In this document: positions 4,941-25,793 of the stretch, in pieces
How the letters are laid out: each line of letters begins with the position of its first letter
How positions within the stretch are numbered: position 1 is the first letter of the stretch
Source: Fodinibius salicampi
Lineage (GTDB): Bacteria > Bacteroidota > Rhodothermia > Balneolales > Balneolaceae
NCBI RefSeq assembly: GCF_039545095.1
Contig: NZ_BAABRS010000001.1
Coordinates: 1,612,001 to 1,676,000 of the forward strand
Direction of reading: 5' to 3'
Length of the DNA: 64,000 bases
Position numbers and translations under genes: made by a program
Notes under the pieces: generated by a model
Databases searched by the model: none
The model's input: only the letters and a program-made list of their open reading frames with translations
Told to the model about the DNA's origin: nothing

Positions 4941-5303
4941 TTAACTTCCAGAAGGTGTCAGAGCGATTTCAAGCTCTTTATTTCCTTCCAGCATCACTTC
5001 CTGACTAAAGCTTTCATAACCATCAGCTTCAATCGTTACTGTGTATGTTCCTGGCTCAAGTCCGTCGATGTTAAACTTACCTTCTTCGTCGGTAGTAGCA
5101 GACTGATCGGCAGAAACCTTAACTTCTACACCGGCAACTGCCTCTTGGGAAGCATTATCGATGACTTTACCAGAAATTGTAGCAGCGGCTGTTGCTTCGG
5201 TTTCCGCTTCTGTGGTTTGAGCCACAGCGGTATTGGAAACCATTGCAAGTCCGAATATCAACATGAATGCTGAGAGAACGTATTCTTTTTTGAGAAACTT
5301 CAT
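4941..5303 (-). CDS. Secreted carboxypeptidase-regulatory-like domain protein
   Basis: The 120-residue product has a signal peptide (basic MKFLKKEY, hydrophobic LSAFMLIFGLAMV, cleavage near AVAQ) and then one Ig-like regulatory domain: ISGKVIDNASQEAVAGVEV, a TTDEEGKFNIDGLEPGTYT core and a final strand KELEIALTP. This fold is the one found at the N-terminus of TonB-dependent receptors, but here it stands alone, which is common for short secreted Bacteroidota proteins of unknown task. It faces the fix operon and is monocistronic. Confidence 0.8.
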   Translation of the reverse strand: MKFLKKEYVLSAFMLIFGLAMVSNTAVAQTTEAETEATAAATISGKVIDNASQEAVAGVEVKVSADQSATTDEEGKFNIDGLEPGTYTVTIEADGYESFSQEVMLEGNKELEIALTPSGS

Positions 5304-13739: not shown

Positions 13740-14306
13740 ATGAATACAGGTATTTTAACAAGCTTTATAATCGGGGGACTGCTTCTGCTGAGTATGATTC
13801 ATTTAAATAACCAGGCATTGCAAAACTCAACGGACGTAACGCTTGATCTGCATAATAAAACCCAGATCGAAACCATACGGAAAATTATTAAACAAGATTT
13901 TAACAGGATCGGATTTGGTAAAAACAGCAAAATAAAATCGTTTAATCCTCCTCATTTCATCAACTTTAGTGCAGATGTCTATGGCGATGGGACCTCAGAA
14001 GTTATTTGGCATTTCAAGAAAAGTGTTCAGGTAAAAGAAACCTCAAATCCTGATGACCGGGTTTTACAACGTAATGGACCCGTAGATAAAACGGGAGGAA
14101 GCAAGCCCACCAAGTTCAGAGTGGTAGACTTTTCCATTACTGGCTTTAGCGATACAGAGGGAGAAAACGAAACAACAGATAAAGAAAAGATTAAAAGCTT
14201 GCGTATCAATATTGTTTATGAATCACCCGAAAGCATATCTTCTTCTGGTGACTATTCCAAAACAGTTTGGCAAAAATTAATAGTTCCAAACAATTTACAA
14301 CTCTAA
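13740..14306 (+). CDS. PilW-position pilin-like membrane protein, set 1
   Basis: The 188-residue product has an N-terminal membrane helix (ILTSFIIGGLLLLSMIHL, residues 4-21) and an extracytoplasmic domain with a conserved ending (SLRINIVYESPES...TVWQKLIVPNN). The protein at 16370 is its paralogue: IIAGMLLMAILMMNM helix and LYIKLVLESPQR...TVWEKRFSPPN at the end. The size and gene position recall PilW-type minor pilins. No leader peptide is present. Confidence 0.6.
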   Translation: MNTGILTSFIIGGLLLLSMIHLNNQALQNSTDVTLDLHNKTQIETIRKIIKQDFNRIGFGKNSKIKSFNPPHFINFSADVYGDGTSEVIWHFKKSVQVKETSNPDDRVLQRNGPVDKTGGSKPTKFRVVDFSITGFSDTEGENETTDKEKIKSLRINIVYESPESISSSGDYSKTVWQKLIVPNNLQL

Positions 14307-14332
14307 GATCTCCAAAATAATCCAACTTTATT

Positions 14333-15598
14333 ATGGGACGTGGTCTTTTATTATTGGCATCCGGTTTAATTATAGTAGTAGCGATCATTCAAAAGTCAAT
14401 GAGTGATCGTCTTAATCTCATTCCTGAAAGAACCTATGACTATCATCAGGAAATGCATGCCCAAAATGTTTCCAATAGTGTTATGGAATATGGTATTCGC
14501 GAAATTGAAAAAGATCAGTCATGGGATGAGGGCCTTTCAGAGGAGGACTTCGTAGAATCAGAAGTTACGCTTCAGGTTTTCGATTATGACGATTACACGG
14601 ATGGAAACCCAGATATTCCCTCCGATCATAGCATCGATGACTGGAATCAGTATACGATTCTGTTAGTAAGTAACGCTCAAACAAACAATGCTGAGGCTTA
14701 TACCGAAGTTGCCATAACCAAAGATTCCTTTTCAAAGTACGTATATTTTACCGATAACGAACCTTCACATATTTATTTTTATGACGGTGATGTGCTGGAT
14801 GGGCCGGTTCATACCAATGACCGATTTAATATAATAGGCTCCCCGGTGTTCAAGGGACCTGTGACCAGTCCAAATACTCCAAATGGAGGTGATCCGGTAT
14901 ATGAAGATATCACAGACTTTGCGTCTCCAACGATTGATATGCCAGGCTCTCAAGAGCTAAATAACCTACGGAATAACGGTATAGATGGGGGAATTACATA
15001 TTCGAATGATATCTACGTTGAATTCAAACAAAATGGAACCGTAGATATTTATGAAAGTAATGGATGGAGCTGGAGTCCGCCGGTTACTTATAACCTCCAG
15101 GATTATAACGGGGTTATTTCTTCTTCGAAAAAAATCTACACCAAAGGAACCATCAAAGGTCAGGTAACCCTGCATTCTGCTGAAGAGGTGGAAATAATGG
15201 GGGATCTTAAATACTCTCAGGATCCGAAAAAAAATCCTGAGTCTACCGACCTTTTAGGTATTATAAGTGAAGGAAACGTAATTGTGGACAAAGATGCCCA
15301 TAAGAACTCGGGTTCCAAAGACTTAGAAATAAATGCCTCTATTATGGCCCTTGATGAATCATTTGAGGTTGAAAACTATAATAGCGGTTCTGATCGGGGA
15401 ACATTGAAACTAACAGGCGGCTTGCAACAACAAGAACGAGGGGCTGTTGGTCAGATAAAATGGGGAGGAATATCAGGTTTTCATAAAGATTATTCCTATG
15501 ATGACCGTCTTCTTAGCATGTCTCCTCCATATTATCCGCGTGCCAGTACTTTTTCCAAAAAGTATTGGAAGGAAAAGCCCGTAGTATTAAATAAATAA
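14333..15598 (+). CDS. PilX-like DUF4900-type protein, set 1
   Basis: The 421-residue protein begins MGRGLLLLASGLIIVVAI (membrane helix at 3-20). The middle has FSKYVYFTDNEPSHIYFYDGD then DGPVHTNDRFNIIG near 156, the DUF4900 pattern found with PilX-like minor pilins, followed by a repetitive beta-rich region (KIYTKGTIKGQVTLHSAEE, ISEGNVIVD). Its paralogue at 17013 has the same MGRAMLIICTGMLVIL start. It closes the first set. It probably projects outside the inner membrane; the role is inferred. Confidence 0.65.
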   Translation: MGRGLLLLASGLIIVVAIIQKSMSDRLNLIPERTYDYHQEMHAQNVSNSVMEYGIREIEKDQSWDEGLSEEDFVESEVTLQVFDYDDYTDGNPDIPSDHSIDDWNQYTILLVSNAQTNNAEAYTEVAITKDSFSKYVYFTDNEPSHIYFYDGDVLDGPVHTNDRFNIIGSPVFKGPVTSPNTPNGGDPVYEDITDFASPTIDMPGSQELNNLRNNGIDGGITYSNDIYVEFKQNGTVDIYESNGWSWSPPVTYNLQDYNGVISSSKKIYTKGTIKGQVTLHSAEEVEIMGDLKYSQDPKKNPESTDLLGIISEGNVIVDKDAHKNSGSKDLEINASIMALDESFEVENYNSGSDRGTLKLTGGLQQQERGAVGQIKWGGISGFHKDYSYDDRLLSMSPPYYPRASTFSKKYWKEKPVVLNK

Positions 15599-15839
15599 GT
15601 ATAACTGGAAGAATGTAAATAATGTCAACTAATAGATCCATTCCAGATGAAACCCGCTTTATATTGATACGATCAAGAGATCAGGAATTAGACGCTTTAC
15701 ATTTTAACAGCTTTGCGTGGTAAATTTTGGTTTCTCGAAATTAAAATATTTAAAGAAATAATATCAAAGGAATTGGACATGCATTGTAACTCTTTTTTAT
15801 GTATGTTAATAATATAATACAATAAATATATCTACTGCT
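15599..15839 (+). other. Spacer between the two pilin-like sets
   Basis: These 241 bp hold no clear terminator. A 33-codon frame (ATG at 15622, stop at 15721-15723) is open but has no recognisable features and is not called. The last 60 bp before the next gene are very AT-rich and could carry a promoter. Confidence 0.3.
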
Positions 15840-16355
15840 ATGGTTGGCTATACGGAAGTACTCCAGACAATTGGAGCCATGGTGATCTTTTCACTGATCC
15901 TGCTCAGTGCTACACGCATGATTCAACGGAACACACTTATGCAGGTAGAGGGAGAATTGGAACAAGAAGTTGTCGCCCTGGCTCAGGATATTATCGAAGA
16001 GGGGCGAACAAAAGAATTTGATGAATACAGTGTGAGTAGTGCACTTCCCCCCGCCGATGCGAATGACTTTGCAGCTCCTTCTAACTTGGGACCCGATAGC
16101 GGGGAAAACACTCGACAAGATTTTGACGACTTTGACGATTACCACGATTGGGAAGAAGTGATTGAGACTGAACACGGAGAATTTAATATCCGCACGGAAG
16201 TCTTTTATGTTAACGACTCATTTAACAAGACGGCTTCCCCGACCTATTTTAAGAAAATGCAGGTTTTTATCACAAGTAAGTTTTTAAAGCAAGGTAGTTC
16301 CGGCGAAATGACGGAATACAGACTTGAATTTACCCGTAACTATTATGCCGACTAA
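15840..16355 (+). CDS. PilV-position pilin-like membrane protein, set 2
   Basis: The 171-residue product has a membrane helix close to its N-terminus (TIGAMVIFSLILLSA, about 10-24), then VEGELEQEVVALAQDIIEEGR, an amphipathic helix as in pilins, and an Asp-rich stretch (NTRQDFDDFDDYHDWEE) followed by a beta-rich end. It corresponds to the first gene of set 1. No prepilin peptidase site precedes the helix. It is followed after 14 bp by its PilW-like partner. Confidence 0.6.
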   Translation: MVGYTEVLQTIGAMVIFSLILLSATRMIQRNTLMQVEGELEQEVVALAQDIIEEGRTKEFDEYSVSSALPPADANDFAAPSNLGPDSGENTRQDFDDFDDYHDWEEVIETEHGEFNIRTEVFYVNDSFNKTASPTYFKKMQVFITSKFLKQGSSGEMTEYRLEFTRNYYAD

Positions 16356-16369
16356 GAAATTTTAGACTT

Positions 16370-16975
16370 ATGGATTTAGGAGTCGTAGTAAGCTATATTA
16401 TTGCAGGGATGCTGCTGATGGCCATCCTGATGATGAACATGTCTGTTTCCAGCAGCTCAACGGAATTGACTATGACGCAAATAACGCGTGAAAAAGCCGC
16501 TGCATTAACGGATATGCTGGAACATGATATTCTGAAGATGGGATATAATAAAACCAGCAAAACCAGTCCGATTATAGAACTGGCGGATAGTCAAAGAATT
16601 CGTTTCCGCAGTAATATTGATGACAGCAATGATAAAACAGTGGAAACGATTACCTGGGAATTAACCAGCGACCCCGTATCTGCAACAGAAAATCCCAATG
16701 ACCTTGAACTAAAGCGTACGGTCAGTGGTGGGATTAATTCAGTAACTCCTATCACTTTAGGAGTAACCGAATTTGAAATCAAATATTTTGATCAATACGG
16801 GGAAGATACAAGTAACAATATGCTGACACCGGTATCCAATCCGGAAGATATCAAACAATTGTATATTAAATTAGTACTGGAAAGTCCTCAAAGAGTATAT
16901 CAAGGGACTAATGACAATGGACGGTATGTTAAAACGGTGTGGGAAAAACGGTTTTCCCCTCCAAATATAGAATAA
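16370..16975 (+). CDS. PilW-position pilin-like membrane protein, set 2
   Basis: The 201-residue product has a hydrophobic N-terminal helix (VVSYIIAGMLLMAILMMNMS, about 5-24), then a Ser/Thr-rich helix and a globular part ending ESPQRVYQGTNDNGRYVKTVWEKR, which matches the end of its set-1 paralogue. It probably interacts with the first gene product of the set, as PilV and PilW do in type IV systems. This is inferred from gene order and shape only. Confidence 0.6.
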   Translation: MDLGVVVSYIIAGMLLMAILMMNMSVSSSSTELTMTQITREKAAALTDMLEHDILKMGYNKTSKTSPIIELADSQRIRFRSNIDDSNDKTVETITWELTSDPVSATENPNDLELKRTVSGGINSVTPITLGVTEFEIKYFDQYGEDTSNNMLTPVSNPEDIKQLYIKLVLESPQRVYQGTNDNGRYVKTVWEKRFSPPNIE

Positions 16976-17012
16976 ATTAATTAAGGCAATTAAATATAAA
17001 TAGGGAGTCATT

Positions 17013-18137
17013 ATGGGACGAGCAATGTTAATAATATGTACTGGTATGTTGGTTATACTGGGCATCATTGGTATTAGTACAGCTGATCAGGGGAAATCAC
17101 TGACACAAAAAGCAGTAAAGTATGCGAATGAAACGACGGCGCAGAATGCAGCGCATACCGCTATCCAAATCGCTATGCAGAAAGTAAATGAAGACGACAG
17201 CTGGGCTACCACCTATGATAAGAGCAATACTTGGACCCAGACAATTGATGAGGCTACAGTAGAACTTTATGTAGAAACCAATAGTGACTATTCTACCAAT
17301 GGCTATTGGGAAGAAGATTCACTTCGTATTACTTCCAAGGCCACTTATGCGGATGGATATGAATCTGAAGTCGTCAGCGTCTATCTAAAAGAACCTTTCA
17401 GTAACTTGGTACCAAAGTTTAAGGGAGCACTTTCGCTTGCTCTTATGAAGGAAGAGATTAAGTCATTAAGTATTGGTGGTAGTTCGATTATCAATGGTAA
17501 TCCTCCAAGTGGCAGTGGATGTAGCAATATGCCTGGTATAGCTGCCATGGATGAAAGCTATGCTGATGAATTGGAAGCTTCGGGTACTGTTCCCGACTGG
17601 TCCGAAAATAAAGGTGTTACCGGAGATCCTCAATTGAAATATGACAGCGACCTAAAATATTCTCCTGTAGATGAGATGATTGCACGCCTTAAAAAGTCGG
17701 GCAATTCTAAGACAATTAGTGGCCAATATTCAGGATCATTAGGAACCCAAGAGAATCCAGGTGTCTTTTTTGTGGAAGACTACGTAAAGCTTACTGGTAA
17801 ACAAGATGCAGGATACGGGATACTGGTAATACGAGGCGACGGAGGAATGGGATATGAAGGTGAGTTAGACTTGAAAGGAAATTTCGAATTTAATGGACTA
17901 GTTGTTTTCGAGAACGCTGAACTATTTGATGGTAAAGGAACTCCAACTATTAATGGCTCAGTTTTAGTTGGTAAACGCCCCCAGGAAGAAAGCAGCACCT
18001 ATGAAAATAGCATTGATATAGATATTAGTGGAAATATCAGTATCCAATACAATTGCATTGCTGAAAAATACGCAAAAATGGCTGCGGCCGATGCAGTTAA
18101 ACAAAATAAATACACCCGCGTTGTTACGTATGAATAA
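17013..18137 (+). CDS. PilX-like protein, set 2
   Basis: The 374-residue protein begins MGRAMLIICTGMLVILGIIG, a membrane helix paralogous to that of the set-1 protein. The middle differs: SLSIGGSSIINGNPPSGSG, GCSNMPGIAAMDESYADE, and a run of short beta strands (GELDLKGNFEFNGLVVFENAE, with GSVLVGKR) as in PilX-like pilus assembly proteins. Two cysteines (GSGCSNM and IQYNCIAEK) could form a disulfide. It lacks the DUF4900 HTND signature kept by the set-1 copy, so the two copies have diverged in this region. Confidence 0.6.
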   Translation: MGRAMLIICTGMLVILGIIGISTADQGKSLTQKAVKYANETTAQNAAHTAIQIAMQKVNEDDSWATTYDKSNTWTQTIDEATVELYVETNSDYSTNGYWEEDSLRITSKATYADGYESEVVSVYLKEPFSNLVPKFKGALSLALMKEEIKSLSIGGSSIINGNPPSGSGCSNMPGIAAMDESYADELEASGTVPDWSENKGVTGDPQLKYDSDLKYSPVDEMIARLKKSGNSKTISGQYSGSLGTQENPGVFFVEDYVKLTGKQDAGYGILVIRGDGGMGYEGELDLKGNFEFNGLVVFENAELFDGKGTPTINGSVLVGKRPQEESSTYENSIDIDISGNISIQYNCIAEKYAKMAAADAVKQNKYTRVVTYE

Positions 18138-18414: not shown

Positions 18415-18918
18415 ATGGACAAAAAATGGTGGAGTTTCTTATGTATAGTTTTTTTACTCTCAAGCTGTTCAATTCAGGCTAAAGCTCAGCAGAATGCAGA
18501 AATTGATATTTCTGTGAATGCCGAAGTTATTAGAAGCCTTGAAATGAATACCGTCCGTGATATTAATTTTAGTCCGGTACAGCCTAGCCAGCAACAGATC
18601 AATATAGCCCCCCAAACCGATAGTAACACTGGTAAAATGGTTGCCATTGGCGATCCCAATGCTCCCATACGGGTCAGCTTTGTCCCGGAAAGGATTCTAA
18701 CCAATGGCAACGGATCTACTCTTGTTTTTACCTATTCCATTGCCGGAAATGATCGGGATGACCAGAGCTCTGCAGAAATTCTTCAGGCCGATAATAGAAA
18801 TTTATCCTTAAACAGCGACGGAAGGTATTACTTTTGGATTGGCGGAAATGTAACAGTAGAAAACGCGGAACCGGGTAATTATAATGGCGATTTTACCATA
18901 GAAGTCGAGTACATTTAA
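18415..18918 (+). CDS. Secreted DUF4402-like fimbrial subunit 1
   Basis: The 167-residue product has a signal peptide (MDKKWWSFLCIVFLLSSCSI; either lipidation at the Cys of LSSC or cleavage at AKAQ). The mature part fits the DUF4402 pattern: early strand AEIDISVNAEVI, RDINFSPV, and the C-terminal G-x-Y-x-G block (EPGNYNGDFTIEVEYI). DUF4402 proteins behave as pilin-like subunits in chaperone-usher-type gene sets. It is the first of three small subunits ahead of the probable major subunit. Confidence 0.7.
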   Translation: MDKKWWSFLCIVFLLSSCSIQAKAQQNAEIDISVNAEVIRSLEMNTVRDINFSPVQPSQQQINIAPQTDSNTGKMVAIGDPNAPIRVSFVPERILTNGNGSTLVFTYSIAGNDRDDQSSAEILQADNRNLSLNSDGRYYFWIGGNVTVENAEPGNYNGDFTIEVEYI

Positions 18919-18939
18919 TTGTTTTGTGGTATTAAATAC

Positions 18940-19494
18940 ATGCTTATGGAGAAGCTTCTTCTAGTTTTAGTTTTCCTTTTTACCTCATGCCCGGTTGCCT
19001 TTGGCCAGTCCCTTGCATTTAATATCGATGCTCCACCAGATTTAGAGGTATCGGTATATAGTGACGGAATACTTGATTTTGGTAATTTAATGCAGAATCA
19101 GGGAACCGTTCAGATCCCGCTTGAAGATGCAAATACGGAAATCATTAGCATTACTGGATTTCTTTTTCGCAGGGTCCACGTAACCATTACTCCACCACCC
19201 GCACTGCAGTTAAATGCTTCTAATTCGCTTCCTTATACACTAAGAGCAGCTTATGCCAATAACGGAGAAGAAAATAAATCTCAGGCCGAACTTTTTAATG
19301 ATAATACGGCTTCATTTCGGATATACAACTTTTCCGGTGGACCTCCTCCATGGGCCGGTGGTGGTAATGGCCGTGGAAATGGTATAGGCGACCTATTCCA
19401 ACAAACAGCCTATGTTTATATATATGGAGATATCGAAGTCGGGCCCGTGCAAGCTGGAACATATAACGGAATAATAAATATTTCTGTAGAATAA
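18940..19494 (+). CDS. Secreted DUF4402-like fimbrial subunit 2
   Basis: The start is placed at the ATG at 18940 (MLMEKLLLVLVFLFTSC); an in-frame TTG at 18919 directly abuts the previous stop and is less likely. After the signal peptide (end near VAFGQS) come DILDFGNL-type and TYNGIINISVE strands as in DUF4402 subunits. A Gly/Pro-rich insertion (GGPPPWAGGGNGRGNG) near residue 150 is not seen in the sister proteins and may be a tip or linker feature. Followed after four bases by the next subunit. Confidence 0.65.
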   Translation: MLMEKLLLVLVFLFTSCPVAFGQSLAFNIDAPPDLEVSVYSDGILDFGNLMQNQGTVQIPLEDANTEIISITGFLFRRVHVTITPPPALQLNASNSLPYTLRAAYANNGEENKSQAELFNDNTASFRIYNFSGGPPPWAGGGNGRGNGIGDLFQQTAYVYIYGDIEVGPVQAGTYNGIINISVE

Positions 19495-19498
19495 GATA

Positions 19499-20029
19499 AT
19501 GACTAAAACTTGCTCTAATAAAATTTTATTTCTATTACTCCTTTTTTCAGGGTTGCTGCCTATCTATACTCAAGCCCAAACCGTTAATTATAACATGGAG
19601 GTCCAACCTGAGCTGAGTGTTGAAGTGCTACGAAACTTAAATTTTGGAACCGTTATAACAAACAGCGGAACACAGCAAATAAATCTCGGCGATAATCGGA
19701 TGGGAGTCTTTGAAATTCGTGCGTTAGCGACCCAGAGCGTATTAATAAGCCTTGATAAACCGGAGCACCTTGAAGCTGAACAGAATGGAAATACAGATCA
19801 AATCCCTCTTTCGCTCCAAGCCGCATATTCTTCCCAGGCAAATAACTATGATAATATAATACCCTTTACCAATAATAATCTTCGAACAGTTCTGGAATCA
19901 ATTAGTGATTCGAAAAATAGTTCTGCCTGGGAAACCGGTTATGTTTATATTTTCGGAGACATCAATGTCGGTGATGTAATCCCCGATTCTTATTCCGCTA
20001 CATTGGTATTAAATGTCGTATATCAATAA
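19499..20029 (+). CDS. Secreted DUF4402-like fimbrial subunit 3
   Basis: The 176-residue protein has a signal peptide ending at YTQAQ, then strands VNYNMEVQPELSVEV, LNFGTVITNSGTQQINLG and a C-terminal GYVYIFGDINVGDVIPDSYSATLVLNVVYQ-like block, split here as YIFGDINVG and SYSATLVLNVVY. The same order of strands is in subunits 1, 2 and 4. It is tightly linked to subunit 2 (four-base gap) and is followed by a 264-bp spacer before the probable major subunit. Confidence 0.65.
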   Translation: MTKTCSNKILFLLLLFSGLLPIYTQAQTVNYNMEVQPELSVEVLRNLNFGTVITNSGTQQINLGDNRMGVFEIRALATQSVLISLDKPEHLEAEQNGNTDQIPLSLQAAYSSQANNYDNIIPFTNNNLRTVLESISDSKNSSAWETGYVYIFGDINVGDVIPDSYSATLVLNVVYQ

Positions 20030-20293
20030 AGACATTTATATTATTATCCCTGTCAACTATTCCCTCCTGTTATAATATTATCTCGATTTCCTTCACTAGT
20101 GTAAAATGTCGGTAGCCCCCTGTTATTAACAGCTAGCTGACTTTACTCAGATTGAAACGACATACCCCTAAATCGTGTGATACCAACAAGATTAAAGGAT
20201 TCTAACTACGATGATTTCTTTTTTACCATTATTTTACAACTGAAAAAAGACATAAAACCTCATTTACAGACAAACATCTAATCAACGGCTATC

Positions 20294-20791
20294 ATGAAAT
20301 CAATCATAAAATATATCTTTGTATTACTATTAGTAACCGGGATAACAACGACGGTCTCGGCCCAACAAGCTGACATTGCAGCAAACGCAACTGTCGACGC
20401 AAATGTCGACCTATCCAGCGGTGACGATCTGAATTTTGGTAATATTGCTGCAGGATCTCCTTCTACTGTTAATCCCGGGGATGGAACCGCAGGAACTTTT
20501 AGCGTTAGCGGAAATGTCGGGAATGTTGATTTAAGCTTTTCGCTACCAAGTGAGCTGACTGGCAGTGAAGATAACCTTCCTATTAGTTTCGGAGGTACTT
20601 CTGCTTCGTGGGGAGACAACGCCTACGATTCAAATAATGACTTCGATCCCAATGATGGAGCTTCTGTTAACCTGCTTGAACAAACTGATAGAGACATCAC
20701 CGTATTTATCGGAGGAACAGTGGATCCTGCGACAAACCAGGCCGCCGGCAGTTACAACGGTACGATTACATTGACAGCGACTTATAATTAA
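20294..20791 (+). CDS. DUF4402 protein, probable major fimbrial subunit
   Basis: The 165-residue protein has a clear Sec signal (MKSIIKYIFVLLLVTGITTT, cleavage after VSAQ) and a small-residue-rich body: ANATVDANVDLSS, DDLNFGNIAAGSPSTV, and the final AAGSYNGTITLTATYN, a close match to the DUF4402 pattern. It is the most regular of the four subunits, has its own 264-bp upstream region and is followed by a strong terminator, an arrangement common for a highly expressed major subunit ahead of chaperone and usher. That role is inferred. Confidence 0.75.
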   Translation: MKSIIKYIFVLLLVTGITTTVSAQQADIAANATVDANVDLSSGDDLNFGNIAAGSPSTVNPGDGTAGTFSVSGNVGNVDLSFSLPSELTGSEDNLPISFGGTSASWGDNAYDSNNDFDPNDGASVNLLEQTDRDITVFIGGTVDPATNQAAGSYNGTITLTATYN

Positions 20792-20810
20792 GTATAAAAA
20801 TTACCCTTGC

Positions 20811-20843
20811 AAAAAGCCAAGATATCTTTTGTCTTGGCTTTTT
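20811..20843 (+). terminator. Rho-independent terminator after the major subunit
   Basis: AAAAAGCCAAGA (20811-20822) pairs with TCTTGGCTTTTT (20832-20843) and a run of T follows. It would limit read-through into the chaperone and usher genes and so set a high subunit to assembly-factor ratio. Confidence 0.9.
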
Positions 20844-21024
20844 TTGTTTAATTCAAATTGTATTTAAAAGAACTTAACATATTTCCGGAAATAACTTCCA
20901 GGATCTTACTTCATTACCCCTATTAGTAAATGTCCCAAGAGGAATTTTAAAATTGATTTTGCATAATCTTCCGCAAATTTCTTAGCTTCCTTTGACATTA
21001 AGAATGATAATCAGTCTATCTGGA

Positions 21025-21852
21025 ATGAAAAAAACGGCCGTTACCTCTATAATCCTGTTTCTATCTGTGCTGGCCTGCGAAGTTCAGGCACAAATAACCA
21101 TTGCACCGACAATGGTGTTTATTGATCAACAAAACCGGTTCGGTAATTTCCTGGTTTTAAATGGATCTGATCAGGCCCAGGAAGTTTCTATCGAATTCCC
21201 TTTTGGCTATCCTGCTACTAATGCAGAGGGAGAGGTCCAAATGATTTACGATGACAGTACAAAAGCTGAGCAATTCGGAATCAGTAATTTAGTAAAAGGA
21301 TTTCCGCAAAGTTTTGTACTACAACCCGGTCAGCGGCAAGTCGTACGATTGACCGTACGCCCCAAGGACTTCTCGGACGGGACCTATTGGACCCGCATAA
21401 AGGTAACGTCAAACGCACAGAATCCTCCGATTGGAGAGGAAACCGATGATGAAATAACGGCTCAAATCACCTATAAATTTGAGCAAATTACCACACTCTT
21501 CTACAAGCATGGCGAAACCAATACTGGTATTAAAATAAACGATTTCACTCATCGCAAGTCGGATAATTCTATTACATTTCTTGCAGATGTAAGCCGTTCC
21601 GGAAACTCACCGTTCCTGGGATCTATTAACTTAAATATTCTGGACTCTGAGGGAAATACCTTACTAACAAGAAGTGCAGCAACTTCGATCTACTTTGACT
21701 ACCGGCAAACCTTTGATATTCCTAAAGACAGTCTGGACGAAGAAGAATATACGGCAGAGATTTCCTTTGAATCACAACGGCCCGATGTGGCCCGTGAAAA
21801 TATTATCCAAATGGAACCGGTTTCAAATTCCATAAGCTTTAGCAGGGAGTGA
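21025..21852 (+). CDS. PapD-like periplasmic pilus chaperone
   Basis: The start at ATG 21025 gives a normal signal peptide (MKKTAVTSIILFLSVLAC, EVQAQ); upstream in-frame TTG (20992) and ATG (21004) codons are possible but add residues before the signal. The mature protein opens with ITIAPTMVFIDQQNRFGNFLVLNG, given here in two parts as ITIAPTMVFI and FGNFLVLNG, and has LQPGQRQVVRLTVRP near 100, the usual G1-strand region of pilus chaperones, then a second Ig-like domain. It would hold secreted subunits in the periplasm. It is coupled to the usher gene by a GTGA overlap. Confidence 0.75.
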   Translation: MKKTAVTSIILFLSVLACEVQAQITIAPTMVFIDQQNRFGNFLVLNGSDQAQEVSIEFPFGYPATNAEGEVQMIYDDSTKAEQFGISNLVKGFPQSFVLQPGQRQVVRLTVRPKDFSDGTYWTRIKVTSNAQNPPIGEETDDEITAQITYKFEQITTLFYKHGETNTGIKINDFTHRKSDNSITFLADVSRSGNSPFLGSINLNILDSEGNTLLTRSAATSIYFDYRQTFDIPKDSLDEEEYTAEISFESQRPDVARENIIQMEPVSNSISFSRE

Positions 21853-24800
21853 GCAACAGGAAAGTAATAACGCTACTCTTATTTACGTGCTTACTTTTTT
21901 TCTTGTTTCCCCAGCCCTCCTTTTCCGACAGCTCCTCAGAGCCTATAAAGTTACGGCAAGAGGGCAATAGCAATGAAGAGCAGGAAGTCTTTTTATCTTT
22001 CAATTATCGTAATTTCTTTAATAAGGTAATTACCGCCTATTATGAAGATGGAAATTACTATCTGCCGGTTTCTGAAATTTTCAGTAGCCTTAAAATATCT
22101 CATGAGGTTAACAATGAAAATCTGACTATTGAGGGATTTTACCTAGAGCCCGAAAACACCTTCTATTTGGATTTTAGTAATTATCAGGTTGAGTTAGCGA
22201 ACAAAGGTTTTTTTTCACTTGATGCTTCCCAGATGCGGGTCAAAGAGCTCGACTATTATATCAAAATGGAAGTTTTGGCTACTGTATTCGACCTGAACTT
22301 CTCTGTGGATATGAATAATCTGCTGTTACAGCTTGAAACTCCTCTTGAATTACCCGTTGTAAGTGAATATAAGCGTCAACAAAGAAGAGAACGGCAGGAA
22401 AGAGCAACAATCGGGCAGGAGTTACATCCTCTTCTATATGAACGGGACCGCAAACTCGTAGGAGGAGCTTTCTTCGATTATTCCCTCTCATCCTTTATAA
22501 ATAATACCGAAAATGCCTATGCCTATAATTTTGATATCGGTTCTGAATTACTGGGCGGAGATCTCGAGGGATCAGCTTACGGAAATTATACAAGCAACTA
22601 CTCAAATTTTACTACAAACAACCTCCGATGGCGATATGTATTAAGAAACAACGACTATCTTACACAATTCTATGCAGGCCAAACAACCTCAAACGGACTT
22701 ATTGATCGTAATTTTACGGGTGTTCGACTTACCAATGAGCCTATAGAACCACGATATCTTTATGATTCCTATGAAATTGAAGGGACAGCCCCCATAGGTT
22801 CTGAAGTTGAACTCTATTATAACAACTCCCTTTACGACTTCAGAAGAATTACAGAAGATGAACAGTTCAGATTTATCGCTCCTTTAACCTATGGAACTTC
22901 CCGGCTCAGATTACGAATATATGGCCCCGATGGACGCGTTAGAGAAAGGGAGCAACGGATACAAGTCCCTTTTAATTTCCTGCCCAAAGATGAGGTTACC
23001 TATCATCTTAATGCAGGACGTCTAAACAATCCCATTCTTGGGAGTACCGAAGAAAGTTACCTGGCGCAGGGAAGTGTGGCTTATGGGCTGTCAGACTGGC
23101 TTACACAAAAAATTGGAATAGAATATTTTGACCAATTTTCAGATCAGGTCCCTCTCTTTTACAGTTCTACATCTGCACGATTATTTGATGACTACTTGTT
23201 CAATGCTGACATTGCCCCCAATGCATTTTATCGATTATCAGGAAATGTCATTTATCCTTCGTCTGCCAGCTGGGGACTAAATTATACCTATTTTTCTGAT
23301 GAAAGAATATATAACCCCATAGGTAATAATCACGAACTTTCTGCTAATTTATTTATTCCTTTTCAAATCGCTGAATTGCCCTTAAACATCCGGTTTACCG
23401 GTGATTATACTCAAAATTCTGCGCAGAATCGCGATAACATCTATTATAACCTGGATCTCAACTCCAGAATTAATCGCCTGAACCTAAGATTAAGTTTTAG
23501 AGACCGGCAATTCGAATCGTTCACCTTATCACCAAGCAGTAGTTCTGAGTTAAGAGCATCAGCAACTTACTTAATTTCCCCTCAAACTAACTTGCCGCGA
23601 TATTTGCAAAACACCTTTGTTAGTACCAGTGCAAGATTTAATCCTGGTTCTGGTACCTTTCAGGAAGCCCAGATACAGGCCTCAAGGAGTGTTTTTGACA
23701 AGGGACGCATTCAGGCTTCCTTTGCAAGAAATTTTGCCGGAAACTTTAATTTCATGAATGTCGGACTTATAATAGACTTTAACTCTATACGCTCAACTTC
23801 TACGATCAGGAATAATAGAAACCAGACTTCTTTTACCCAGAATTTTCGGGGCTCTGTGGGGTATGACGATTATAATAATGATCTTACCTTTTCAAACAGA
23901 AACCAAGTGGGCCGCTCCGCAACCTCGCTCCGATTGTATGTAGACTCTAACAACTCCGGTTCCTATGATGAAGAAGATAATACTATCCAGGATGATGCTA
24001 TACGTATTGGCAGAGCCGGAGTCCAGTCAACATCCAAAGACGGTATCTTCCGCTTTAGTCAGCTCCAATCGTATCATAGAATTAATATGGAGATCAATGA
24101 ATCGGCGATCCAAAATCCTTTGTTGGTTCCTGAATTTAAGGAATTTTCAATTGTTACTGATCCCAACCAGTATAAACCCATTAATATTCCTTTCTATACA
24201 TCAGGAGTAGTCTCAGGGAAAGTGGTACAATTAGAAGGAGAAAGCTCTGCCCCTCTCTCTGGTGTTCGATTATATTTGGAAAGCAAGCAAAATGATTATT
24301 CCAAGGAGATGCAGACTTTCAATGACGGCAGTTTCTATGCCCATCAAATACCACCCGACAGTTACCGTTTGTATATTGATCCCAACCAGCTTCAATTTCT
24401 GAATGCTTTTTCAGAACCCGATACAATGACGGTAGAAGTAGAAGCTATTGCTGAAGGAGACTTCGTTGAAAATCTTAATTTTAAGGTAATACCAAAATCT
24501 GGTTCTGATAAATCAAATCAGCCTGAAGAAACAAGAACCTATCCAGAAGAGGCGGCACAGGATACAACAATAGAAAAAGACAAAAACAGCCGTTACCAGA
24601 TACAAATAGCGAGTTTCAAAACGGCAGAAAAGGCCAAAAAAGTTTCCAAAGATGCATCTAAAATCATTAACCGTCCCTTTAAACCGGTACTAAATGTTCT
24701 CAATAATCTCTACGCCATTAGAAGTTCCTTCATGGATACAGAGCAAGAGGCTATAGAACTATTTCGTACGCTCGTCGATAATGATTTCGAAAGTAATGCT

Positions 24801-25334
24801 CTTGTAGTCCAAAATAGAACCAAGCTTTTACAAGAAGAAGCGGATTCAGTTCTTATTTTCCATAATTTCAAAACATTGCAAAATGCACGGAAATCAGCCA
24901 ACCAGATAGCCCGTAATACTAACAAAGAAGTATCAATTGGACAATTTAGGGGAAAACAGGATTTTGTCATTTACCAAAAAAAGAGGGCAATAAGTAGGAA
25001 AGACACATCGGCATTTCAAACAACAGAATATCAAAAAAAGTACGAGGAAGCTAGAATAATCAATTTACACGAAAGTGAGGTTACGCTGATAGAGCAGAAG
25101 AAAGCCATGAATTTCACTTTCCAGATACAGGTTAGAGGAATAAAAACTGCCTCCCAAAAAACCAATTTGCAGACCTTTATCCAAGATAAGCCGCAGCTAT
25201 CAATTGATAAAGGTGAAGATGCCTCAACTTATATACTGGAAGGTTTTCAAAAATGGTCATATCTGAAAAAAATTCAGATGGAACTTGATCAGTTTCATCA
25301 TGATCTTGCTATCCCGATATTGATAGAAGAGTAA
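21849..25334 (+). CDS. Usher-like outer-membrane protein with SPOR-like tail
   Basis: The 1161-residue protein starts at a GTG overlapping the chaperone stop and has a signal peptide (about 1-26). Residues 40-200 resemble an usher N-terminal domain and linker. At about 307-380 lies a plug-like segment (IEGTAPIGSEVELYYNN, YGPDGRVREREQRIQVPF), then a beta-strand-rich barrel (380-700). At 785-865 is a carboxypeptidase-regulatory-like Ig domain (GVVSGKVVQLEG, SFYAHQIPPDSYRLYI). The C-terminus has three SPOR-like repeats at about 914-975 (YQIQIASFKTAEKAKK), 996-1050 and 1086-1161 (FQIQVRGIKTASQK). Secretion and assembly of the DUF4402 subunits is the inferred role; peptidoglycan anchoring by the SPOR-like tail would be unusual for an usher. 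Confidence 0.75.
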   Translation: MSNRKVITLLLFTCLLFFLFPQPSFSDSSSEPIKLRQEGNSNEEQEVFLSFNYRNFFNKVITAYYEDGNYYLPVSEIFSSLKISHEVNNENLTIEGFYLEPENTFYLDFSNYQVELANKGFFSLDASQMRVKELDYYIKMEVLATVFDLNFSVDMNNLLLQLETPLELPVVSEYKRQQRRERQERATIGQELHPLLYERDRKLVGGAFFDYSLSSFINNTENAYAYNFDIGSELLGGDLEGSAYGNYTSNYSNFTTNNLRWRYVLRNNDYLTQFYAGQTTSNGLIDRNFTGVRLTNEPIEPRYLYDSYEIEGTAPIGSEVELYYNNSLYDFRRITEDEQFRFIAPLTYGTSRLRLRIYGPDGRVREREQRIQVPFNFLPKDEVTYHLNAGRLNNPILGSTEESYLAQGSVAYGLSDWLTQKIGIEYFDQFSDQVPLFYSSTSARLFDDYLFNADIAPNAFYRLSGNVIYPSSASWGLNYTYFSDERIYNPIGNNHELSANLFIPFQIAELPLNIRFTGDYTQNSAQNRDNIYYNLDLNSRINRLNLRLSFRDRQFESFTLSPSSSSELRASATYLISPQTNLPRYLQNTFVSTSARFNPGSGTFQEAQIQASRSVFDKGRIQASFARNFAGNFNFMNVGLIIDFNSIRSTSTIRNNRNQTSFTQNFRGSVGYDDYNNDLTFSNRNQVGRSATSLRLYVDSNNSGSYDEEDNTIQDDAIRIGRAGVQSTSKDGIFRFSQLQSYHRINMEINESAIQNPLLVPEFKEFSIVTDPNQYKPINIPFYTSGVVSGKVVQLEGESSAPLSGVRLYLESKQNDYSKEMQTFNDGSFYAHQIPPDSYRLYIDPNQLQFLNAFSEPDTMTVEVEAIAEGDFVENLNFKVIPKSGSDKSNQPEETRTYPEEAAQDTTIEKDKNSRYQIQIASFKTAEKAKKVSKDASKIINRPFKPVLNVLNNLYAIRSSFMDTEQEAIELFRTLVDNDFESNALVVQNRTKLLQEEADSVLIFHNFKTLQNARKSANQIARNTNKEVSIGQFRGKQDFVIYQKKRAISRKDTSAFQTTEYQKKYEEARIINLHESEVTLIEQKKAMNFTFQIQVRGIKTASQKTNLQTFIQDKPQLSIDKGEDASTYILEGFQKWSYLKKIQMELDQFHHDLAIPILIEE

Positions 25335-25385
25335 CCTTCTATATAAAACATCCTAGCCCCCAACCAAAACAATTGATGAACTTAA

Positions 25386-25793
25386 TTAATTGTATGCTAT
25401 AGTAGTTGTAAGATCACCTTTATAGAGGCCCTTCCGTAAAGGCTTATTGGTAGAATTGTGGAGAAAAAAACTACTAGACTCTTTTGACCCTGAAATTTTA
25501 TTTCTATTTACTGAAAAATAGATGGTCCCCCCTGCCGTATCTTTTAATGCTATTTTATTACTATAGGAAGTAGTAGTCTTTCCTTCTGCATTCCCACCAA
25601 AGATGATGCTGCCGATGGAGGTCTTTCCGGATTCTTCCAGAATTACAGAACTTTGGTGATTAGCTTCAACGTCTGCTCCCTTTACAACCTGAACAGTTAT
25701 ATCCATTACGGCCCTGGCCGATTTTTGGGCATGACCCTCACGTATACCAAACAGAAAAAGAAATAGAATTAATATTGGTACGTATTTGAACAT
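25386..25793 (-). CDS. Small secreted DUF4402-like protein, convergent to usher
   Basis: The 135-residue product has a signal peptide (MFKYVPILILFLFLFG, cleavage near GHAQ) and ends with LRKGLYKGDLTTTIAYN, the G-x-Y-x-G-x-strand ending of the neighbouring subunits. It is Ser/Thr/Lys-rich in between and lacks the DFGN-like strand, so membership of DUF4402 is only suggested. It stands alone on the opposite strand right behind the usher gene, and could be an accessory or regulatory subunit. Confidence 0.55.
   Translation of the reverse strand: MFKYVPILILFLFLFGIREGHAQKSARAVMDITVQVVKGADVEANHQSSVILEESGKTSIGSIIFGGNAEGKTTTSYSNKIALKDTAGGTIYFSVNRNKISGSKESSSFFLHNSTNKPLRKGLYKGDLTTTIAYN

Follow-up and report, generated by a model that had tools for sequence, protein, structure and literature searches.

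A divergent chaperone-usher-type locus in Fodinibius salicampi whose usher carries a predicted SPOR tail, one of several tails exchanged among its relatives

Positions 18415-25793 of a 64,000-nucleotide stretch of the Fodinibius salicampi genome (the window) contain a chaperone-usher-type gene cluster of this salt-loving, Fodinibius/Aliifodinibius-like bacterium, and the cluster encodes a 1161-residue usher that ends in three predicted SPOR repeats. We consider it rather probable that this is a divergent chaperone-usher fibre locus in which the SPOR tail holds the pore to peptidoglycan. The usher fold, the SPOR fold, the swapping of tails among related ushers and the linkage of one tail type to motor genes were all established computationally. 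An earlier note on this DNA, made from the letters alone, had placed the genes correctly, and the open reading frames (ORFs) lie at the positions it gave. The usher gene starts with GTG, overlaps the stop codon of the candidate chaperone gene by four bases and is present in a single copy in its 3.94 Mb genome assembly. It has the following parts.

21849..25334, plus strand: usher, 1161 residues (AlphaFold2, Foldseek, VIA-align)
21981..22337, plus strand: predicted usher N-terminal domain, residues 45-163 (model; beyond the range of the structural alignments)
22458..23867, plus strand: predicted usher barrel, residues 204-673 (model and alignments to FimD/PapC)
22752..22967, plus strand: predicted plug domain within the barrel, residues 302-373 (model; position as in FimD/PapC; core profile match at 4.5e-6)
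23916..24494, plus strand: two predicted C-terminal beta domains, residues 690-784 and 786-882, the second carboxypeptidase-regulatory-like (model; FimD alignments)
24495..24584, plus strand: linker of low confidence, residues 883-912 (predicted local distance difference test score, pLDDT, below 50 at 886-910)
24585..24818, plus strand: predicted SPOR repeat 1, residues 913-990 (Pfam, under cut-off; model; tail profile; motif Q919/S922)
24846..25067, plus strand: predicted SPOR repeat 2, residues 1000-1073, without the conserved glutamine (model; the least confident, block pLDDT 65-85)
25104..25331, plus strand: predicted SPOR repeat 3, residues 1086-1161, with Q1094 (model, motif)

The predicted structure identifies the 1161-residue protein as a divergent usher, in line with the earlier note, which had called it usher-like. 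The AlphaFold2 model, built on a 73-row alignment, had a mean pLDDT of 87.4 and a predicted template modelling score (pTM) of 0.66, and AlphaFold2, Foldseek and VIA-align together showed a barrel with an inner plug followed by C-terminal domains. When we compared the model with the PDB, FimD and PapC entries filled ranks 1-19 in Foldseek (best E 4.0e-31), and ranks 1-15 in VIA-align were usher entries with Z scores of 19.9-23.6, the next entry being a siderophore receptor (Z 15.9). Identity in the structural alignments to FimD/PapC was 10-16%, and the N-terminal domain, which in ushers receives chaperone and subunit, was modelled outside the aligned range. Used alone, the sequence of the window usher matched nothing in the PDB up to E 10, NCBIfam gave nothing near a cut-off, and the PDB matches of a profile of the usher core were repeats of a biofilm-associated surface protein only, over the plug. 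In a family set of 41 members, namely the window usher and 40 from related genomes, Pfam Usher (PF00577) matched five at E ≤ 0.01 (best 3.4e-8; the window usher is not one of the five), and TcfC matched one at the same threshold. The carboxypeptidase-regulatory-like domain that the earlier note had read in this protein is present as a stretch (Pfam CarboxypepD_reg at residues 788-843, under cut-off), but we ruled it out as an added part: it lies in the conserved usher core and belongs to the usher's own C-terminal domains, since the alignments to FimD extend to residues 878-881.

The tail beyond these domains is predicted to fold as three SPOR-like units, again in line with the earlier note. 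In the AlphaFold2 model a beta-alpha-beta-beta-alpha-beta unit occurs three times, so that the SPOR fold is found in all three repeats. Of the two outcomes that the earlier note had said would refute it, a predicted structure lacking the usher barrel and plug or repeats lacking the SPOR fold, neither was obtained. Members of the family matched Pfam SPOR at E ≤ 0.01 in 20 of 41 cases (best 3.9e-22; the window usher is not among the 20), and a profile built from 13 tails matched SPOR domains of known structure, that of CwlC at 9.4e-8 and, weakly, that of FtsN at 0.015. No SPOR chain appeared among the listed matches of the Foldseek and VIA-align searches, for which the whole usher was the query, because usher matches fill these lists. 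By motif, Q919 and S922 of repeat 1 occupy the places of Q270 and A273 of RlpA. According to PMC6895207, RlpA Q270 touches the glycan and is the sole ligand residue that is highly conserved across the structurally solved SPOR domains. In the tail of the window usher this glutamine is present in repeat 1 (Q919) and repeat 3 (Q1094), and across the family its column holds glutamine in 76 of 113 tail repeats.

We next looked for the same domain order in other genomes. A profile search of the contigs of relatives gave 85 relatives, of which the best 80 were taken as loci; by their titles these are largely from Balneolota, Bacteroidota and Ignavibacteriota, and some look misbinned. Pooling them with the 41 family members gave 121 loci, and removal of 21 near-copies left 100 distinct ushers. 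Three same-genus relatives are near-identical to loci of Aliifodinibius salipaludis (L074), Fodinibius halophilus (L137) and Fodinibius salsisoli (L094). The tail was SPOR in 46 of the 100 ushers (the window usher included), TPR in 26, OmpA in 6 and absent in 19, and 3 genes were cut; these labels were assigned by eye, and profiles agreed with them except at L145, where the gene is split over two frames. OmpA tails matched at up to 2.9e-20 (L142). A single SPOR tail adds a LysM domain (L127, Pfam 8.5e-6), at L127:5672-6532 in an Ignavibacteriales bin. On a tree of 96 usher cores (4 short rows left out), which was built quickly, has no bootstrap and contains some long branches, the tail type changed at least 17 times, and the TPR state alone accounts for 10 changes, 8 of them forced by starred branches. 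Exchange reaches into the genus of the window, where the TPR-tailed usher of G009 sits among SPOR-tailed ushers; the SPOR-tailed usher of G014 is sister to the TPR-tailed one of G032. Hence, the usher tail is an exchangeable module. The SPOR tail that the earlier note had seen as a property of this usher is there, but it is not fixed: within the family it is exchanged for several other tails. Four ushers (L123, L129, L150 and L132) have an N-terminal extension of ∼185-291 residues, judged by eye to resemble fibronectin type III; the first three are tailless and L132 is cut.

The TPR-tailed ushers are accompanied by genes of a flagellum-type motor. We counted a locus as testable when it offered at least 700 bases downstream of the usher, which left out 13 loci (2 TPR, 7 SPOR, 1 without tail and 3 cut). 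A FliF-FliG fusion gene lay downstream, at -68 to +213 bp, in 24 of 24 testable TPR-tailed loci and in none of the 63 other testable loci (39 SPOR, 18 without tail, 6 OmpA). Fourteen of the 24 contain all four motor genes, in the order FliF-FliG, a TPR protein that by eye is lipoprotein-like, MotA and MotB. Whole FliF-FliG genes have about 610-730 codons and encode a FliF-like periplasmic part between two presumed membrane helices, followed by FliG. The fusion at L073 matched FliG_M (5.9e-11), FliG_C (8.5e-8), FliG_N (1.2e-7) and, under cut-off, YscJ_FliF_C (E 0.0053) in Pfam, and a profile of 13 such sequences matched FliG in the PDB at 1.5e-29. A model of the fusion had a pLDDT of 72 and a pTM of 0.30, and the first 31 rows of its fold search were solely flagellar FliG and FliF chains, the FliF chains, at E of about 1e-6 to 1e-4, including the RBM3/collar part. 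In the same locus MotA was recognized at 2.1e-16, and MotB by MotB_plug (1.8e-5), OmpA (2.5e-14) and SPOR (2.7e-19). The aspartate at position 32 of this MotB, which we take to be the proton-carrying aspartate of the channel, is invariant in 12 of 12 MotB rows. The TPR tail of the usher is itself related to the TPR protein of the cassette (L073, BLASTP 4e-10).

Within the class, FliF-FliG matched at E ≤ 1e-40 at 44 places in 32 of 244 genomes, and 25 of these 44 places are directly downstream of an usher; they were compared with 76 usher places, omitting those outside the order, G086:C459, G115:C100 and G043:C1:3625495. Among 11 checked genomes with an usher-linked cassette, 6 gave no match for FlhA, the export gate of the flagellum, suggesting that the motor of these 6 is hardly flagellar; one of them, G057, is a fragmented assembly of 89%. 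No motor cassette was found beside the usher in the window or elsewhere in its genome, where the FliF-FliG matches are confined to an ordinary set of flagellar genes at another place (L159). Shortened FliF-FliG genes without a MotA or MotB match nearby stand beside the TPR-tailed ushers at L160 and L161 (G036, G039) and at L086. A second type of cassette was seen at L152-L157, in all 6 places examined among the 19 that are not directly downstream of an usher, and consists of FliF-FliG, a protein of 361-397 residues, a TPR protein, MotA and a short MotB, with no usher match nearby. The 361-397-residue protein is secreted and has a barrel-like end by eye; at L153 it matched no Pfam family at E 0.01.

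The remaining genes of the cluster are a candidate chaperone and secreted subunits.

18415..18918, plus strand: secreted DUF4402 subunit 1 (Pfam DUF4402 E 1.4e-8, above cut-off)
18919..19494, plus strand: DUF4402-like subunit 2 (Pfam DUF4402 E 0.043, under cut-off; iterated profile); the start codon is uncertain and the searches took 18943
19499..20029, plus strand: DUF4402-like subunit 3 (no Pfam match; iterated profile and alignment)
20294..20791, plus strand: secreted DUF4402 subunit 4 (Pfam DUF4402 E 1.1e-7, above cut-off)
20992..21852, plus strand: PapD-like chaperone candidate (two Ig-like domains judged by appearance; gene position; weak PapD_N)
25386..25793, minus strand: fifth DUF4402-like secreted protein, 135 residues, convergent (iterated subunit profile 9.5e-9; no significant Pfam family)

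Four DUF4402-like subunits had been proposed; two of them stand above the Pfam cut-off, but one is weak, and for one Pfam gave nothing up to E 1. An iterated profile links all four plus-strand subunits and the minus-strand gene. By its iteration the profile is circular, and its E-values are not independent evidence because it drifted far enough to catch a false ORF at positions 4944-5303 of the minus strand, a carboxypeptidase-regulatory-like frame of 120 residues. We found no paper on DUF4402 in the open-licence PMC literature. The candidate chaperone is supported as PapD-like by its place, most loci with sufficient DNA having a relative immediately before the usher, and by faint PapD_N matches, but its class was recognized only weakly.

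In the machine that we propose, the usher would export DUF4402-like subunits across the outer membrane and stack them into a fibre, and its periplasmic C-terminus would grip peptidoglycan with the three SPOR repeats, probably on glycan strands stripped of their peptides. The tail position may be a general coupling site of the usher family, filled by SPOR, SPOR with LysM, OmpA, TPR or nothing: SPOR, LysM and OmpA tails would tie the pore to the wall, and a TPR tail would meet the motor, so that in these relatives the pore may be linked, in place of the wall or by way of it, to a motor in the inner membrane. Glycan binding, fibre export and mechanical coupling are what we infer here. Wall anchoring is supported by the finding that unrelated peptidoglycan-binding folds, SPOR, OmpA (6 of 100) and LysM (1 of 100), share one tail position.

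Several results weigh against this proposal. The window usher scored 17.7 bits with PF00577, whose cut-off is 27.1, and 14.9 bits with Pfam SPOR against 21 (E 0.035); it is nevertheless the sole PF00577 match in its genome. Repeat 2 lacks the ligand glutamine. The candidate chaperone has no matching Pfam family of its own, its profile found nothing in the PDB up to E 1, PF00345 has no match anywhere in the genome of the window, and the commonest Pfam match among the members of the chaperone family, PapD_N, reaches 14 of 44 with a best E of only 0.0027. A tail is not needed for an usher as such, since 19 of the 100 are tailless, and the tail that ranks second in frequency, TPR, does not bind the wall. 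Finally, 10 of the 24 TPR-tailed loci do not show all four motor genes: five (L043, L060, L063, L117 and L125) run off the contig or the fetched DNA, and five (L044, L050, L066, L086 and L140) have no MotA or MotB, four of the latter with a short FliF-FliG, as if the motor were being lost there.

Alternatively, the SPOR tail might be mainly an address label that puts the usher, and hence the growth of the fibre, at the division site or the new pole and bears no load, a reading that we consider unlikely but worth weighing. SPOR domains bind denuded glycan, which is concentrated at the septum; division or morphogenesis is the role of every known SPOR protein, according to a 2019 paper (PMC6895207). 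Three repeats would increase the avidity. However, OmpA and LysM domains are not known to choose septal glycan, so that a shared septal address would leave their exchange with SPOR unaccounted for.

We give still less weight to the possibility that the tail is an arm for protein contacts with a different complex of the envelope, with wall binding incidental and with SPOR, OmpA and TPR sharing the recruitment of a partner. TPRs are interaction modules, the TPR tails go with motor genes, and the SPOR repeats of the window usher are divergent, all of which would fit such an arm. It is at odds with the retention of the ligand glutamine in 76 of the 113 repeats and with the other swapped tails, which belong to wall-binding families.

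A relation between usher tails and the motor is visible in the genomic slot that the window shares with G009 of the same genus. Behind the usher region both have the same set of inverted genes (134-135, 412-420, 327, 368-369 and 890 residues), and in G009 only, not in the window, motor genes stand between the usher and these genes. This G009 cassette (L162:802-5541) comprises FliF-FliG, the TPR protein, MotA and a MotB with a SPOR end, directly behind a TPR-tailed usher. A SPOR end on MotB was found in 8 Balneolaceae loci and was not seen in G033, also of Balneolaceae, or in five MotBs from outside this family (L102, L061, L120, L141 and L146). The MotB SPOR ends align over their full length with the usher SPOR tails as colinear triples (hhalign, 245 columns, E 8.9e-36). 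In 15 of 22 searched genomes with a SPOR-tailed usher, the usher tail is the best match of the genome to a profile of the MotB end (E ≤ 0.001); the exceptions are the genome of the window (G000), G010, G021, G024 (second), G038, G041 and G046, and in G000 the usher tail was missing from the listed matches and a different place reached 7.1e-5. Because the window and G009 share the slot, one could have expected the usher tail to be what was left of a lost MotB. The tree of tails contradicts this: a single branch with support of 98/97 separates all 8 MotB tails from all 21 usher tails, in a tree of 29 hand-picked rows in which four four-repeat ushers were entered with repeats 1-2 only. Hence, we rejected repeated fusion of MotB SPOR ends to ushers upon motor loss, and it is very improbable that the tail is a scar of low function left in each lineage when an usher was fused to the SPOR end of a lost MotB as the motor genes were deleted, even though the same slot carries opposite tails in the window and G009 and the MotB triple and the usher tails are colinear relatives. 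One single old transfer between MotB and usher tails, in either direction, is possible. Near the SPOR-tailed usher of G024, a free-standing SPOR protein of 548 residues on the opposite strand (L053:13218-14861) resembles the MotB SPOR end.

Returning to a tail that couples the usher to other parts of the envelope, the swaps suggest that fibre machines can be attached to either the wall or an engine. We tentatively extend this to an usher that would form a platform in the outer membrane, fitted with an exchangeable clutch on its periplasmic side, in which wall-locking tails would hold the pore and a TPR tail would connect it to a rotor and stator that drive or rotate the fibre by ion-motive force. 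In the textbook view, chaperone-usher export runs without an energy source and the usher lies free in the outer membrane. If true, a wall-binding tail would give the fibre a load path, a motor-associated tail would make chaperone-usher export energized, and the exchangeable clutch would give a use for rotor genes in non-flagellated bacteria. To our knowledge, a motor-powered chaperone-usher machine would be the first.

The window usher shares with FimD and PapC the predicted barrel, inner plug and two C-terminal beta domains as well as the order of subunits, chaperone (here a candidate) and usher. It differs from them in its score under the Pfam Usher cut-off, its low identity, its DUF4402-type subunits and the extra periplasmic tail beyond the last C-terminal domain. 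With the division proteins FtsN, DamX, RlpA and CwlC it has the predicted SPOR fold and the ligand glutamine in common, whereas its SPOR domains are in three copies and on an outer-membrane usher. The motor genes of the TPR-tailed relatives resemble the flagellar rotor and stator in the FliG domains, the FliF RBM3/collar-like part, MotA, and MotB with plug and OmpA domain; unlike in the flagellum, FliF and FliG are fused, only the late part of FliF is present, the genes adjoin an usher and 6 of 11 genomes have no FlhA match. PMC12199754 treats rotor proteins that occur without filament proteins as an unanswered question. The type 9 secretion system offers a parallel for an export machine of the outer membrane that is tied to the wall: its PorE has an OmpA-type peptidoglycan-binding domain (PMC9127263). 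In contrast to type 9 secretion, with its PorE and GldLM motor, and to other 5:2 ion-driven motors, the wall-binding domain is here on the pore itself, and the motor-linked relatives have a FliG-type rotor and an usher as the outer-membrane partner. The words 'usher' and 'pilus' are absent from a review of 5:2 motors (PMC9389320), and in PMC9127263 chaperone-usher systems are named only in a reference. Among the best-ranked papers listed from the open-licence PMC literature, a restriction that makes the absence a weak one, none describes a SPOR-tailed usher or a motor beside an usher, judged by titles and the starts of abstracts.

Upstream of the cluster, at positions 13740-18137 of the window, lie five genes that by eye resemble minor pilins, and the gene at 14333 matches DUF4900.

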